Source: Treponema sp.
GTDB taxonomy: Bacteria > Spirochaetota > Spirochaetia > Treponematales > Breznakiellaceae
Length of the DNA: 40,222 bases
Direction: 5' to 3'
Assembly: GCA_031281555.1 (NCBI GenBank)
Contig: JAITFK010000003.1
Coordinates: 1-40,222 of the forward strand
The notes under the pieces were generated by a model that was not told where the DNA came from, ran no database searches, and worked only from the letters and a program-made list of their open reading frames with translations. Both the position numbers and the translations under genes were made by a program. Positions 1 through 6,963 of this stretch are shown one piece after another (the stretch's first letter is position 1; each line of letters opens with the position of its first letter).

Positions 1-1
1 T

Positions 2-208
2 ATGCGGCAAGGACTTGGAATGATAAATAATTTTGTCAATGCCAAAGAAATATGGGAAGAAGCTTTTTCCGAAGCGATTAACAACAACCATTCTGTTTAC
101 GATATGTTTTATATGGTAACCGCAAGAAGACATGCCGGGACGTTGGTTACCAATGACTCAACTTTAGCGGCGGTTTGTAAGAAGAATCATGTTCAGGTTT
201 GTTGTTGA
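2..208 (+). CDS. PIN-domain (VapC-like) toxin, C-terminal part, 5' truncated by window edge
   Basis: Residues VYDMFYMVTARRHAGTLVTNDSTLAAVCKKNHVQVC match the PIN-domain C-terminal pattern (YDxxYxxxARxxxxxLVTxDxxL). The upstream part is outside the window. Confidence 0.65.
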   Translation: MRQGLGMINNFVNAKEIWEEAFSEAINNNHSVYDMFYMVTARRHAGTLVTNDSTLAAVCKKNHVQVCC

Positions 209-238
209 ATGAGGGGGTGATGAGGTGTTTTTAAAGAA

Positions 239-268
239 TTGAAGGGGATTGAATAAGTGTGGTATGAT
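239..268 (+). promoter_or_regulatory. Possible sigma-70 promoter for the five-gene cassette
   Basis: TTGAAG (239-244), 18-nt spacer, TATGAT (263-268), upstream of the ATG at 327. Confidence 0.35.
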
Positions 269-326
269 CAAAAAAGTTATAAATAAATTGGGATTAATAA
301 AGGAATACATAAGAAAAGGAGTTTTT

Positions 327-1343
327 ATGAATAAAAAATTTACAATTAATTTGGACGGTATAAAAACTGAAGTTGAGAGAAGGAAAATACCCCTAAATAA
401 GATTATATTGGATATTAAAAATCCTCGAATTCAGTATTTTTTAGATACAAAACTTAATACTGATGTTACACCAGATCAAGTAAAATTTGCATTAGCAGAG
501 TCAAATGACCAGTATTTAAAACTAAAAGAACTTATTGAATCAAATAAGGGAATATATGAAGCTATTTGGGTATTTCCAAACAAAGATAAGTTTATTGTTA
601 TAGAAGGTAATACCCGTGCTTTTATCTACGAGGAATTATCTCAAAAATACAGTAATGACCGAAAATGGAAAGAAATAGACGCTTATATTTTACCACGAGA
701 AATTGATCGATCAAGGATTAACTTTATAAGGCTTGAAAAACATCTGTTTGGTCCCACACCATGGTCAGCATATGAAAAAGCAAGAGAATTACACCGATTA
801 TTCAAAGATGAATATTACCCCATAAAGCGTTTACAGCAATTAACTAAACTCGGTTCAACAGAAATTAAAAACAGTATTCAAGCATTTAAAGATATGGAAG
901 AACAATATTTGCAAAAATATAAAGGACCTACACAAAGACTGAAGTTTAGCTATTTTGTTGAATTTCGTAAAAACAAAGAATTGCAAACATTGATGAATAA
1001 AAATGAATTGTCACTTGAACAATTTTGTGATTGGGTTGGTGAGGACAAGTTTAGAAGAGGTGAAGATATAAGGAAATTACCTTTAGTACTAAAAGACGAG
1101 CAAGCAAAAAAAGAATTGATAAACAATGATTTTCAAGCTGCGTTGGATCAGCTTGGGCAAAAGAATCCATCTGCAAATTCAAAATTGTTTGAAGACATTC
1201 AAAAAGTAATAAAAGGTATAGATAAGATATCATTTTCTGAATTAAGTGAAATAAAAGGCGGCCTTCAGCCAGGAAAGGTAAATGATTTAAAATTATTATA
1301 TAATAAATTATATAAATTATTACAAAATATAGGTGTTTTATAA
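327..1343 (+). CDS. ParB/Srx-like domain protein (paralog A)
   Basis: The preferred start is ATG 327, preceded by AAAAGGAG; the ORF track's 249 start is alternative. N-terminal IPLNKIILDIKNPRI and FIVIEGNTRAFIYEEL resemble ParB-like motifs. It is similar along its length to 3178-4203. Confidence 0.65.
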   Translation: MNKKFTINLDGIKTEVERRKIPLNKIILDIKNPRIQYFLDTKLNTDVTPDQVKFALAESNDQYLKLKELIESNKGIYEAIWVFPNKDKFIVIEGNTRAFIYEELSQKYSNDRKWKEIDAYILPREIDRSRINFIRLEKHLFGPTPWSAYEKARELHRLFKDEYYPIKRLQQLTKLGSTEIKNSIQAFKDMEEQYLQKYKGPTQRLKFSYFVEFRKNKELQTLMNKNELSLEQFCDWVGEDKFRRGEDIRKLPLVLKDEQAKKELINNDFQAALDQLGQKNPSANSKLFEDIQKVIKGIDKISFSELSEIKGGLQPGKVNDLKLLYNKLYKLLQNIGVL

Positions 1344-1345
1344 TA

Positions 1346-1753
1346 ATGGCTGGAAAACAACATCAGTTTATTATCGGGTTAATAAATAAAAAGATACTCG
1401 AGTATGGTTTTACAATAGTATTTATTGATGGTCATGTTTCTGGAGCATTTGATAAAAAATATAATTTACCACCGAAAATTCTACGACATCGTCCCGATGT
1501 GATTGGAATAAACAATAAAGGGTGTATTTGCATTGGAGAGGCAAAAACAAAAAATGATATATTTAATATAAGAACCAAAGAAGAACTTTTTGATTTTTCA
1601 AATTACAAATTTAATGGGAATGCTTGTTTGCTAATTATTGGTATTCCAAAATCTTCACAAAATGATCTTGATAAATTATTGAGTGAACTTTGTATACAAA
1701 ACAACGATAATATTGAAATTTTATCAATTCCGGATGAAATAATAAATGAATAA
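1346..1753 (+). CDS. Small PD-(D/E)XK-like nuclease candidate
   Basis: 135 aa. The motif HRPDVIGINNKGCICIGEAKTKNDI fits PD-(X)n-(D/E)XK. It starts 2 nt after the preceding stop and its 3' end overlaps the SNF2 gene by 8 nt. Confidence 0.5.
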   Translation: MAGKQHQFIIGLINKKILEYGFTIVFIDGHVSGAFDKKYNLPPKILRHRPDVIGINNKGCICIGEAKTKNDIFNIRTKEELFDFSNYKFNGNACLLIIGIPKSSQNDLDKLLSELCIQNNDNIEILSIPDEIINE

Positions 1754-3176
1754 ATTAATACAAAATTTTAAACCTAAAACGGAACCGCTTCCCCATCAAT
1801 TAGAAGTAATAAATTATATTCATAATAATGCTATTATTGCTTTATTTGATGAGCAAGGATTGGGAAAAACAAAAATAGTTATAGATGCACTGTCATTGGA
1901 TATGCGCGAAGAGAAAATACAAGGAGTATTGGTCATATCCCCGATGTCTCTACTTTTTAATTGGGAACAAGAAGTACAAAAACACTCTTTTTTACTACCT
2001 ATAGTTTTAAAAGGATCAAATAGAGAAAAAAGATATAAATTTTTGACCGGAGCAAACTTTTATTTAATAAATTATGAATCAGTAATTTCAGAACTACAAA
2101 GAATAGAACGTTTTTGTAAAAGTAGAAAAATTGCTATTGTTCTTGATGAATCAACAAGAATAAAAGACCCTAATTCAAAAACAGCTCAATCAATATTTCA
2201 ATTGTCTCAATACTCTGTTAAAAGGATAATTATATCTGGTACGCCTATAGCTAATAAACCATATGACATTTGGTCTCAATTTTATTTTCTAGATAAAGGT
2301 ATTATTTTATCTAATAATTATAAGAATTTCAAATCAAAATTTAATATTAAAAATATTGAATATGAAAGGAATTTAATAAATTTAAATAAGTGTATTAATG
2401 AAAATTCTGTTCGTCGATTAAAAGAAGACGTTCTTCATCTCCCTGAAAAAGAATATATAAATATTTTTGTCGATCTTTCAGGGAAACAAAAAAAACTATA
2501 CAATGAGCTATGTAAAGAATTAAAAATAGAAATAATAAATACTAATGGAGATCTTATTCTTGATGAATCAGAGGCTATTCTAAAAAAATTGTTACGCTTA
2601 GCCCAAATTGCATCCAATCCTTTCCTTATTGATAAAAGTTATAACGAGACTCCCGTAAAATATTTAAAGTTAGATGAATTAGTAAATTCAATAGTTTCAA
2701 ATAAAGAAAAAATAGTTATTTGGACATGTTTTGTTGAAAATATTAAATTATTAAAAAAGAGATATAAACTTTTTTCACCATTAGTTATTTATGGAGAAAC
2801 TCCAATAAATAAACGTGCAGAGTATATTAAAATGTTTCAAGATGCAGAAGAAAATAAAATTATGATACTTAATCCTTCTGCTGCAAGAGAAGGCATAACG
2901 CTTACAAAAGCAAATAATGCGATTTATCTGGATAGAAATTTTAATTTGGTTGATTATTTACAGTCACAAGATAGAATACATAGAATTTCACAAGAAAAAA
3001 AATGTAAAATTTATAAACTAATTGGCAAGAATACAATAGATGAGTATATTGATAAATATATAGAAGTAAAAAAAGATATAGCAAAATTTATTCAAGGTGA
3101 TAAAAAAGAAATTGAAGAACAAGTATTTCAATTTCTATATAATAAGTCTCAAATATTAAAGACATTAGGAGGATGA
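1746..3176 (+). CDS. Compact SNF2-family DNA helicase/translocase
   Basis: Motif I DEQGLGKTK, Ia LVISPMSLLFNWEQE, II VLDESTRIKDPNSK, III ISGTPIANKPYDIWSQF, V/VI AREGITLTKANNAIYLDRNFN...QSQDRIHRISQEKKCKIYKL. Confidence 0.9.
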   Translation: MNKLIQNFKPKTEPLPHQLEVINYIHNNAIIALFDEQGLGKTKIVIDALSLDMREEKIQGVLVISPMSLLFNWEQEVQKHSFLLPIVLKGSNREKRYKFLTGANFYLINYESVISELQRIERFCKSRKIAIVLDESTRIKDPNSKTAQSIFQLSQYSVKRIIISGTPIANKPYDIWSQFYFLDKGIILSNNYKNFKSKFNIKNIEYERNLINLNKCINENSVRRLKEDVLHLPEKEYINIFVDLSGKQKKLYNELCKELKIEIINTNGDLILDESEAILKKLLRLAQIASNPFLIDKSYNETPVKYLKLDELVNSIVSNKEKIVIWTCFVENIKLLKKRYKLFSPLVIYGETPINKRAEYIKMFQDAEENKIMILNPSAAREGITLTKANNAIYLDRNFNLVDYLQSQDRIHRISQEKKCKIYKLIGKNTIDEYIDKYIEVKKDIAKFIQGDKKEIEEQVFQFLYNKSQILKTLGG

Positions 3177-3177
3177 T

Positions 3178-4203
3178 ATGAAAAACACTATTACAGTGCA
3201 AGGTAGAGCAATAACATATGAGATTAAGGATGTTGATATTAATGAAGTTCAATATTATCCCGAAAATCCACGAATAAATTATATCATAAGTAGTTATCCA
3301 AAGAATGAAATAACACAAGATTTAATACAGAATGAATTACTAAAATTGGATCAGACACGAGAAAGAATAAAGGATCTTGAAGAAAATAAGGGATTAATAG
3401 ATGAAATATATATATTAAATAAAAAAGTTATTGAAGGTAATACAAGACTATGTGCTTTTAGAATATTAAGTAAAAAATATCCAAATGACAAACGATGGGA
3501 AACAATAAAAGCAAGAATTTTACAAGATAATGTTTCAGAAGAAGAATTATTTTATATATTAGGAATATTCCATATAAAAGGAAAAACGGAATGGAATGCA
3601 TATGAAAAGGCGGCATATATATATAAAATGATTGTAACATTAAAAAAGAGTCCTGATGATATAGGAAAACAGCTTCGTATGCAACCAAAAAACATAGTAG
3701 CAGCATTAAAATCATACAAAGCAATGAAAGATAAATATCTTACTAAAAATAAAGATAAAAGTATTGATAAACAATATGAAGATTTAAGAAAATTTAGTTA
3801 TTTTGATGCTTTTTATCACCAGAAAGAGCTGGTCGAACGAGAAGAAAACACGCCCGAATTTTTGAATAACTTTGTTGCATGGGTTAAAGAGGATAGATTT
3901 AAAAATGCTCAAAGTGTAAGAGATTTACCAAAAATATTAAATAATAAAAGAGCTCAAAAAATATTCTGTGTCAATGAACCAGAAACTGCATATTTTGAAG
4001 CAATGCAAATATTACATCAAGATAAGCCTGGTAAAGTCGATAAATTTTATAAAAAATTCGAAGAATTTTCTGATTTTTTAGATGGTGCTGAGATAAATAA
4101 AATCAAAGAGGAAATTATTGAAAATCGTAATAAAAAACATGTAATAGAAACTTGTTATAAAAAACTAAAAAGATTTACAAAAGATTGTGGACTGGAAGTA
4201 TAA
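3178..4203 (+). CDS. ParB/Srx-like domain protein (paralog B)
   Basis: KKVIEGNTRLCAFRILSKKYPNDKRWE aligns with IVIEGNTRAFIYEELSQKYSNDRKWK of paralog A. Shared KFSYF, WVxEDxF and xxVRDLPxIL/xxIRKLPLVL blocks. RBS AGGAGG just upstream. Confidence 0.65.
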   Translation: MKNTITVQGRAITYEIKDVDINEVQYYPENPRINYIISSYPKNEITQDLIQNELLKLDQTRERIKDLEENKGLIDEIYILNKKVIEGNTRLCAFRILSKKYPNDKRWETIKARILQDNVSEEELFYILGIFHIKGKTEWNAYEKAAYIYKMIVTLKKSPDDIGKQLRMQPKNIVAALKSYKAMKDKYLTKNKDKSIDKQYEDLRKFSYFDAFYHQKELVEREENTPEFLNNFVAWVKEDRFKNAQSVRDLPKILNNKRAQKIFCVNEPETAYFEAMQILHQDKPGKVDKFYKKFEEFSDFLDGAEINKIKEEIIENRNKKHVIETCYKKLKRFTKDCGLEV

Positions 4204-4204
4204 A

Positions 4205-5551
4205 ATGGGTAAGTTGAAAGTTTTACTTGTAGAACCATCATATAAATGTAAATATCCACCTTTAGGATTAATGAAATTATCAGCATTTCATAAAAAACGC
4301 GGTGACGAAGTTGTTTTTGTAAAAGGAACCATTAAGGAAAAAAAAGATATAATGTGGGATAGGATTTATATATCGACATTATTTAGTTTTTATTGGGATT
4401 TAACAATAAGAACAATAGATTATTATGAATTTAGTGTAAAAGATCCTAGAAATTTTTATATTGGTGGTCCTATGGCTACAATAATGGCGGAAGAAATAAA
4501 AGATGTAACTGGATTTATTCCGGTGCAAGGATTACTAAATAAAGAAGGACAAATAAATTTACCTAATGAGCAAAATATTGATAATATGATACCTGATTAT
4601 AATTTATTAAACCAAATCTCATATAAATATTTATCTGATAATGCGTATTTTAGTTATACAACACGTGGCTGTATTAGAAAATGTCCTTTTTGTGCAGTTC
4701 CAAAAATAGAACCATTATACCAAGAATATGTTCCACTAAGTAAACAAATAAAATCCATAAATTTAAAGTATGGAAGAAAAAAGGATTTGTTGCTCTTAGA
4801 TAATAATATTCTTGCATCATCGTGTTTTGAAAAAATAATTGATGAAATAAAAGAAATAGGATTTTTTAAGGGTGCAAAATTAAATGGTATATCAAGATAT
4901 GTAGATTTTAATCAAGGTATTGATCTCCGTAAACTTTCAAAACAAAAAATGAAATTGCTAGCAGAAATATCAATAAGACCATTACGAATAGCATTTGATG
5001 ATATACGACTAAAAGAACAATATATTAAAGCGATAGAAATGGCAGCAGAATATGGAATACTTAATTTATCAAATTATATATTGTATAATTATAATGATAC
5101 ACCGAAAGATTTTTTTGAAAGATTAAAAATAAATGTTGATTTAAATGAAAGATTGGGAACAAAAATATTTTCATTTCCAATGAAATATATTCCAGTAACA
5201 AATAAAGATAGATTATATGTAGGAACACATTGGAATCCTCGCTTTTTAAGAGGAATTCAATGTATTTTACATGTTACTCATGGGGTCGTTGGTCCTAATA
5301 AATCTTTTTTTGAAGCTGCTTTTGGAAAAAATTATTCTGATTTTAAAAAAATATTATTGATGCCGGATTCTTTTATAATGTATCGAGAAAGTAGAAAAAA
5401 AAATAAAGTGAAACAATGGCAAAATATATTAAATAATTTCTCCAATAACCAAAGGTCTTTCTTTATGAAAAATATCTTACAAAACAGCTATTCCTGTGTT
5501 TCAAACGATAAATTGATTAAAAAAATAATATCTTTTTACAAAGAAAAATGA
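4205..5551 (+). CDS. Radical SAM protein with B12-binding-like N-terminal domain
   Basis: CIRKCPFCAVPK is a CxxxCxxC radical SAM motif. The N-terminus KVLLVEPSYKCKYPPLGLMKLSAFHKKRG is typical of cobalamin-binding-like radical SAM enzymes. ATG 4205 is preferred over 4187, which overlaps the upstream gene. Confidence 0.85.
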   Translation: MGKLKVLLVEPSYKCKYPPLGLMKLSAFHKKRGDEVVFVKGTIKEKKDIMWDRIYISTLFSFYWDLTIRTIDYYEFSVKDPRNFYIGGPMATIMAEEIKDVTGFIPVQGLLNKEGQINLPNEQNIDNMIPDYNLLNQISYKYLSDNAYFSYTTRGCIRKCPFCAVPKIEPLYQEYVPLSKQIKSINLKYGRKKDLLLLDNNILASSCFEKIIDEIKEIGFFKGAKLNGISRYVDFNQGIDLRKLSKQKMKLLAEISIRPLRIAFDDIRLKEQYIKAIEMAAEYGILNLSNYILYNYNDTPKDFFERLKINVDLNERLGTKIFSFPMKYIPVTNKDRLYVGTHWNPRFLRGIQCILHVTHGVVGPNKSFFEAAFGKNYSDFKKILLMPDSFIMYRESRKKNKVKQWQNILNNFSNNQRSFFMKNILQNSYSCVSNDKLIKKIISFYKEK

Positions 5552-5724
5552 TAATTTTTATTCTATACATAAATATTGAATAATTATTATCTTTCACAGA
5601 ACTATACATACAAAGAAAAACTTATTATTATAAAAGAATATTATTACTCAAAAAGTAAAAAAAAATATTAAATAACGATAATTCTTATTACGAATAATTC
5701 GATGTCTGCTAATTTGCAATAATC

Positions 5725-5753
5725 TTGATAAAATAAATAATTTTTAGTATAAT
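5725..5753 (+). promoter_or_regulatory. Near-consensus sigma-70 promoter for the DUF433/DUF3990 cluster
   Basis: TTGATA (5725-5730), 17-nt spacer, TATAAT (5748-5753), 20 nt before the ATG at 5773, with AAGGAG as RBS. Confidence 0.65.
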
Positions 5754-5772
5754 CTAAGTATAAGGAGAAAAA

Positions 5773-6003
5773 ATGCCCCTCGAACATTTTAACCGCATAA
5801 CAAATGACCCCGACATAATAAGTGGCAAATCCTGTATTAGAAATATGCGTATTACTGTGAGCAGAATACTCTCCAAAATTGATGCAGGAGAAACAATTGA
5901 TGAACTGCTGGTTGACTACCCATACCTTGAACGAGAAGATATTCTGAAATCTTTGAAATACGCCGCATGGCTTACCGAAGGCCATGAAGTTACTCTTACT
6001 TGA
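5773..6003 (+). CDS. DUF433 family protein (antitoxin-like)
   Basis: FNRITNDPDIISGKSCIRNMRITVSRILSKIDAGETIDELLVDYPYLEREDILKSLKYAAW matches the DUF433 pattern (P.i..GkpcIrg.RitV..il..l..G.s.eEil.dyP.L..edi..al.ya). Confidence 0.9.
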   Translation: MPLEHFNRITNDPDIISGKSCIRNMRITVSRILSKIDAGETIDELLVDYPYLEREDILKSLKYAAWLTEGHEVTLT

Positions 6004-6019
6004 TAAAGGAGCAACCATA

Positions 6020-6526
6020 ATGATCCTATACCACGGCAGCGACCAAATTATAAAAACTCCAGAACTTCGCTCCTCAACCAGAACTCTCGACTTTGGAGCA
6101 GGTTTTTACACAACCACTAACAAGGAACAGGCTGTCAATTTTGCTGTTAAAGTTTATACCCGCTCAATTAGGGAAGGCATTGCTCCAAAAGGTAAATTTA
6201 TCAGCGTCTATGAAGTTGACTACGAAAAAATAAAACAGGAACTTGATGTATTACATTTTAAATCAGCGGATGAATCGTGGCTTGATTTTGTTATGGCTAA
6301 CAGACGTAATACTTATAACAGCAAAAAATATGACGTAATCTATGGACCTGTAGCAAATGATACTATATATCGAACATTAATAGCTTTTGAAGATGATGTA
6401 TTGTCAACAGAGGATACTATCGCCAGATTAAAAGTCCGACAATTATTTGATCAAATGACTTTTGTTTCGGAACATTCCCTTTCGTTCCTGAAATACTCAG
6501 ATTTTATTGAGGTTCAAAATGATTGA
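6020..6526 (+). CDS. DUF3990 family protein, ADP-ribosyltransferase-like putative toxin
   Basis: MILYHGSDQIIKTPEL...LDFGAGFYTTTNKEQAVNFA...YDVIYGPVANDTIYRTL matches DUF3990 (YHGS and GxGFYTT blocks). ATG 6020 is preferred over 5984. Confidence 0.8.
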   Translation: MILYHGSDQIIKTPELRSSTRTLDFGAGFYTTTNKEQAVNFAVKVYTRSIREGIAPKGKFISVYEVDYEKIKQELDVLHFKSADESWLDFVMANRRNTYNSKKYDVIYGPVANDTIYRTLIAFEDDVLSTEDTIARLKVRQLFDQMTFVSEHSLSFLKYSDFIEVQND

Positions 6527-6758
6527 CACTCAATTTAAGGCAACATTGGAAATGCTGATTCCTCTTGTTATCAAAGAAATAATGAAAAGCCGCAATATAA
6601 GCGAGAAAGAAGCTTTTGAAATGTTGTATTCCTCGTTCTTGTACAGTAAACTTGAAACAGAGTCCACCAAATTATGGCATTTAAGCCAATTGACTTTGGC
6701 AAATTTATTAAACGAGGAAATTGAGACGGGAAATATTATTTTTCCGGAGGAAACATAA
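6519..6758 (+). CDS. Small protein of the DUF3990/DUF3791 cluster (putative antitoxin component)
   Basis: 79 aa (MIDTQFKATLEMLIPLVIKEIMKSRNISEKEAFEMLYSS...). Overlaps the DUF3990 gene by 8 nt and precedes the DUF3791 gene. Confidence 0.65.
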   Translation: MIDTQFKATLEMLIPLVIKEIMKSRNISEKEAFEMLYSSFLYSKLETESTKLWHLSQLTLANLLNEEIETGNIIFPEET

Positions 6759-6759
6759 C

Positions 6760-6963
6760 ATGAGCGGCAATGCCGAATTTATTACCTACTGTATGGAAGA
6801 ATACAAGGCTGTAAAGGGTATAACAGGAAAAGAAGTCATTACACTTTTCAAGAAACACAATATTATTGATTATATTGTTACTTGTTACGGAGCTTTGCAT
6901 ACTATGGGCGGTCTTGCCATTGCGGAAGATATAGATTCACTAATTGAAAATAAAAAAAGATAA
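6760..6963 (+). CDS. DUF3791 family protein (putative antitoxin component)
   Basis: AEFITYCMEEYKAVKGITGKEVITLFKKHNIIDYIVTCYGALHTMGGLAIAEDIDSLIENKK matches DUF3791. RBS GGAGG. Confidence 0.8.
   Translation: MSGNAEFITYCMEEYKAVKGITGKEVITLFKKHNIIDYIVTCYGALHTMGGLAIAEDIDSLIENKKR

Follow-up and report, generated by a model that had tools for sequence, protein, structure and literature searches.

A radical SAM enzyme joined to a ParB-nuclease-SNF2-ParB operon in Treponema suggests a restriction-modification-like system

The window analysed here, a 40,222-nucleotide stretch of a Treponema sp. contig (JAITFK010000003.1), opens with five plus-strand genes that a sequence-only reading had singled out as a candidate undescribed defence or DNA-modification system. 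A Shine-Dalgarno AAGGAG with its spacer (313..326, + strand) precedes the ATG at 327 of the first gene, ParB1 (327..1343), which encodes a 338-amino-acid (aa) protein of the ParB/sulfiredoxin (ParB/Srx) superfamily with DxxNPR and EGNTR motifs. Behind it lie NUC (1346..1753), a small PD-(D/E)XK nuclease of 135 aa; SNF2 (1746..3176), a stand-alone SWI2/SNF2 translocase of 476 aa with intact GLGKT, DEST and QDRIHR motifs; ParB2 (3178..4203), a second ParB/Srx protein of 341 aa; and rSAM (4205..5551), a 448-aa radical S-adenosylmethionine (SAM) enzyme with an N-terminal B12-binding-like Rossmann domain, a CxxxCxxC motif and a helical C-terminus. An open-reading-frame check confirmed the tight packing first described, with gaps of 2 nt (1343/1346), 1 nt (3176/3178) and 1 nt (4203/4205) and an 8-nt overlap between NUC and SNF2 (1746-1753). 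A consensus promoter scan of the operon region stayed at chance level, with no more sites than in shuffles. Pfam recognised SNF2, recognised rSAM weakly and left the other three proteins unrecognised.

The identities first given to these proteins held on closer inspection. As single sequences, ParB1 and ParB2 score under the Pfam cut-off for ParB; a 16-row ParB1 profile matches the solved ParB structure 4umk (E = 3.7e-5), the ParB2 profile has no match in the Protein Data Bank (PDB), and NPR and EGN[TS]R motifs are kept in both families. The two proteins are paralogues with 27% identity. NUC matches no curated family, and its sequence-profile search of the PDB returned chance matches only. Across its family H6, P50, D51, E65 and A66 are invariant and K67 nearly so, giving a PD...ExK motif within a conserved fold. 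Since its AlphaFold model (predicted local distance difference test score, pLDDT, 92) matches EndoMS/NucS in Foldseek (EndoMS 5gke, 6.7e-5; 2vld, 1.1e-4) and also resembles YaeQ, XisH and EcoO109I, we class NUC as a PD-(D/E)XK nuclease of the EndoMS/EcoO109I type. SNF2 carries the Pfam domains SNF2-rel_dom (1.2e-38) and Helicase_C (4.9e-13) and shares 35-40% identity with plasmid orthologues.

The fifth protein matches the Pfam radical SAM family (1.7e-5) and phrog_9298 (5.8e-46), and its cluster cysteines C156, C160 and C163 are invariant in 49/49 aligned rows; together with the barrel, they mark it as a radical SAM enzyme. Its AlphaFold model (pLDDT 93.9) is closest in Foldseek to TsrM and MgmA, then AprD4, MiaB, OxsB and RimO. 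The class B radical SAM methylases TsrM and MgmA appear to share its overall fold, a B12-binding-like Rossmann domain plus barrel, with 14-15% identity in structural alignments. The modelled fold is thus of the cobalamin type, with cofactor binding as a prediction, and the reaction would be carbon methylation or some other radical reaction centred on carbon. A MiaB/RimO-type methylthiotransferase was ruled out: because only three cysteines are conserved, the auxiliary cluster, which needs three extra N-terminal cysteines, is excluded.

Homologues of the enzyme fall into two size classes that differ in their neighbours. Long forms (≥525 aa) have an adjacent GHKL ATPase in 65/68 cases, against 2/27 for short forms like the window's, which is without the extension of the GHKL-linked forms; loci at contig ends were left out of this count. 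The GHKL proteins keep Bergerat-fold motifs and are weakly similar to Hsp90, MutL and BbrUII/HgiDII-type restriction ATPases. As the window's host genome (83% complete) encodes no DGQHR protein and has an HtpG-like protein as its sole GHKL, the window unit is probably a complete five-gene minimal form, one also found at two further loci (L038 and L042).

The gene set recurs far beyond Treponema. An rSAM-alignment scan of genome and viral contigs, followed by neighbourhoods based on hidden Markov models, recovered 43 loci with all five genes, bearing out the idea that they would co-occur in unrelated genomes; near-copies among them are a Rhizobium group and L057/L064/L070. The order ParB1-NUC-SNF2-ParB2 is kept in 42/43, with rSAM adjacent downstream in 34, upstream in 4 and on the opposite strand in 5. 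Hosts span Pseudomonadota, Bacillota, Nitrospirota, Chloroflexota, Thermodesulfobacteriota, Planctomycetota, Latescibacterota and Binatota, and the nearest relative of the window unit is a Syntrophaceae locus (L014; rSAM 66% identical). Alphaproteobacterial plasmids also carry ParB1, SNF2 and rSAM homologues together (tblastn), nearly always ordered ParB1-~140 aa-SNF2-ParB2 and adjoining a DGQHR protein, rSAM and a GHKL ATPase; a Bradyrhizobium plasmid variant has additional ParB-like genes. The system is usually larger than the window form, with a GHKL ATPase and sometimes DpdB-like and PIN/GHKL genes. Because all five genes have same-order homologues in dozens of unrelated genomes, the window set is not a chance assembly.

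Since these 43 loci had been found through rSAM, we also searched from the other genes, and every search from ParB or the nuclease ended at an rSAM. From ParB1, rSAM lay nearby in 6/6 distinct plasmids; from ParB1 plus ParB2, viral contigs had rSAM in 8/8, orthologous in seven and divergent in L189. From NUC, a search of 297 genomes of the window's phylum added a single genome (G180); its ParB module and rSAM sit at two contig ends, each breaking within a GHKL gene, and most simply form one locus. Among 337 genomes of one class, approached via a Jannaschia locus, NUC found only the centre genome and nothing new, so the five-gene system is rare and sporadic. On the viral contig L189 (5669-7027, 7024 onward), the divergent rSAM replaces the usual one beside ParB1-NUC-SNF2-ParB2 and overlaps ParB1 by 4 nt, and the genes downstream encode a LexA-like S24 protein and a 514-aa protein.

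The same rSAM family is also joined to quite different modules. PbeA-PbeC-PbeD homologues stand directly before it at L020-L028, L033 and L052; DrmA-DrmB-NERD helicase(-nuclease) sets accompany it at five loci (L031, L047, L055, L058 and L083), most with a GHKL; nuclease-like-DGQHR fusions, with the DGQHR domain identified by NCBIfam, do so at L046, L054, L059, L069 and L086; and PIN-GHKL is a further module. DGQHR proteins of the DpdB and DndB type adjoin rSAM at about a quarter of loci. In a quick tree of 100 rSAM rows, from which exact duplicate loci had been removed, the module label switches 34 or more times; for the ParB module, 15 or more switches are required by branches with good support. 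Near-identical rSAMs (L049/L069, 88%; L062/L086, 89%; L081/L089, 92%) adjoin different modules, so partners have been exchanged recently; the GHKLs of these pairs are 63-81% identical. The one element common to the DISARM-, Pbe-, DpdB- and ParB-type modules is rSAM.

Several of these neighbourhoods have features of their own. The fusions of ~780 aa at L046:7556-9895, L069:7556-9895 and L086:7572-9887 join an N-terminal nuclease-like domain (IDVxxKDxxxxIVEC), its catalytic lysine mostly lost, to DGQHR; rSAM and GHKL come next, making a compact three-gene variant. A b395-b556-GHKL-rSAM-GHKL operon recurs at L044, L050, L060, L061, L073, L074 and L085, and b395 and b556 of L050 match no family in Pfam, PADLOC or NCBIfam. 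In a Dehalococcoidia metagenome-assembled genome, a distinct multi-gene cluster (L043:910-9557) has rSAM last and includes genes that none of the other loci showed. Four DISARM-like operons (L192-L193, L194, L195-L196 and L197) all read d646-DrmA-DrmB-NERD helicase-rSAM, with d353 and an upstream GHKL in 3/4.

None of the named systems accommodates the window unit, in line with the first impression that the gene set was unfamiliar: a PADLOC run fitted no system to it, and membership of DISARM, Dpd, Dnd, Pbe or Zorya was rejected for want of matches to their defining components. The five proteins include no DrmA helicase or DrmB (DUF1998) match and the unit no DNA methyltransferase (DrmMI/DrmMII), and SNF2 matches the PADLOC DrmD models as a general SNF2 only. 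Five sister loci, by contrast, pair DrmA and DrmB with a related rSAM. With Dpd and Dnd the unit has the ParB/Srx superfamily in common, yet models of DpdA, DndC, DndD and DndE found no match in it, and it contains neither a DpdA-type transglycosylase nor DpdB by the same search. There is likewise no DndD- or PbeC-type ABC ATPase and no DndE/PbeD cognate among the window proteins; PbeA, PbeC and PbeD are all absent, and the candidate marking gene is rSAM. At Pbe-type loci, rSAM occupies the place of the published marking genes of PbeABCD and CxC-ABC ATPase-DndE systems (PMC6459918; PMC10853773). In the CxC-DndE core, the marking component alongside consists of phosphorothioation genes or cytosine methylases, and radical SAM is brought up solely regarding DndC (Rakesh et al., PMC10853773). 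Zorya comes closest through ZorD, a SNF2 fused to an Mrr-like nuclease whose SNF2 part is PADLOC's top match for the window SNF2 (3.1e-61); in the window, nuclease and SNF2 are separate genes, the other four proteins match no Zorya model, and the unit gave no match to the membrane motor proteins ZorA and ZorB. The PADLOC candidates PD-Lambda-5 and PDC-M38A gave short N-terminal ParB-like stretches only (5e-7 to 0.03).

The operon is chromosomal. GC content is 25-31% across the five-gene unit (window 1-6000) against ~43% in the rest of the contig, which is consistent with horizontal gain. Beside the unit lie toxin-antitoxin-like small genes and then ordinary chromosomal genes, and the contig continues into isoleucyl-tRNA synthetase, EF-Tu and ribosomal protein genes, with no phage structural genes adjacent; a prophage or replication module at the window, the alternative that the sequence-only reading had kept in play, was rejected on these grounds. 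The toxin-antitoxin-like genes (6020-6950) recur elsewhere in the host's own genome, with 92% identity at G000:C104, and to some extent in relatives. When relatives were searched with the flanks, only scattered matches to these repeats came up, and no clean empty site.

We consider it somewhat more probable than not that the unit is a restriction-modification-like anti-invader system in which rSAM marks self DNA and SNF2, NUC and the ParB proteins restrict unmarked DNA. The radical SAM enzyme would write a radical-chemistry mark on host DNA, most likely C-methylation or a similar carbon modification, acting alone in the window form and with a GHKL ATPase, a DpdB-like protein or both in other lineages. 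ParB1 and ParB2, as nucleoside triphosphate (NTP)-binding ParB/Srx proteins, may form an NTP-gated DNA-binding or reader pair, and SNF2 would translocate along DNA and bring the small nuclease to unmarked invading molecules. A writer of a 'self' mark is suggested because one rSAM is common to several otherwise different restriction modules. For rSAM we infer a DNA substrate, a mark with the meaning 'self' and defence as the result, because some module types paired with it depend elsewhere on a DNA mark, the cluster motif is fully conserved and the effectors are otherwise unrelated. More broadly, it is a plausible proposal, at a little under even confidence, that the rSAM cassette, often rSAM-GHKL, is a plug-in 'self' writer of a novel DNA modification for at least five restriction modules: ParB-NUC-SNF2-ParB, DISARM DrmAB, PbeA/C/D, the nuclease-DGQHR fusions and b395-b556-GHKL.

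Several observations weigh against DNA marking. The nearest solved folds belong to enzymes whose substrates are amino acids, proteins, aminoglycosides, nucleotides or tRNA. The window form has neither the GHKL nor the DpdB-like partner, NUC is small, its catalytic lysine varies in a few family members, and the link of DISARM, Pbe and Dpd modules to a DNA mark comes from the literature. The absence of methyltransferases was judged by motif only: by that check, in which the four DISARM-like operons were inspected along with flanks of ≤20 kb, none lies inside the operons, and motifs near rSAM are sporadic (7/100 loci).

The most serious rival, which we regard as unlikely while giving it real weight, is a defence system whose rSAM modifies a partner protein (for example ParB, SNF2 or GHKL) or else produces a nucleotide analogue or a small signalling molecule, with NUC degrading invader DNA. 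Among the near folds, MgmA methylates a protein, TsrM methylates free tryptophan and OxsB processes a nucleotide; because long rSAM forms almost always adjoin a GHKL, the two may act on each other. Yet rSAM occurs also without GHKL, the modules that share it have no common protein substrate, and DISARM-like loci carry it where one would look for a methyltransferase, of which none was seen. ParB/Srx proteins have been reported as NTP-regulated DNases, such as GmrS and Osa (PMC5512222), and suicidal cleavage is one option proposed for CxC/Pbe systems (Rakesh et al., PMC10853773); a modification-dependent (type IV-like) or abortive mechanism could accordingly be imagined, in which ParB/Srx, SNF2 and NUC attack foreign-marked DNA or, upon infection, self DNA, and rSAM serves as sensor or activator. 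The conservation of the cluster motif argues for catalysis over sensing, and the core lacks a toxin or membrane effector; we think this mechanism improbable.

A mobile-element or phage module for replication, partition or segregation, rather than defence, would account for the plasmid occurrences, the ParB-like genes, the closest phrog of SNF2 (phage helicase family phrog_62) and the small rSAM homologues in phages. Set against it are the housekeeping genes that follow the window unit, the location of most loci on ordinary genome contigs and not in prophage replication modules alone, a fixed gene set without ParA or replication genes, and the exchange of rSAM among defence modules, which leave this explanation a slim chance.

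Context lends strong support to the first reading of these genes as a defence or DNA-modification system not yet described: synteny is fixed across phyla, every reverse search led to rSAM, and rSAM is interchanged with DISARM, Pbe and DpdB/DndB-type modules; the functional part of that reading we infer. Within open-licence papers, we found no description of rSAM with DISARM, Pbe, DndE, DpdB or the ParB-SNF2 set; subscription surveys of DNA-base-modification neighbourhoods lie beyond that scope and may hold an earlier mention. In functional terms we would place the unit within modification-based restriction, as a new variant whose chemistry could be new. Carriers of relatives are in culture and genome-sequenced (Novosphingobium aromaticivorans DSM 12444 and Rhizobium leguminosarum WSM1325), which makes the proposal directly testable. 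If restriction guided by an rSAM-written mark is borne out, a widespread, apparently unnamed class of defence marks self DNA by radical chemistry, with a type of mark beyond methylation, phosphorothioation and 7-deazaguanine and hence a new DNA modification to seek. It would also account for DISARM- and Pbe-like loci without a methyltransferase, and a single writer would be able to serve many restriction modules.

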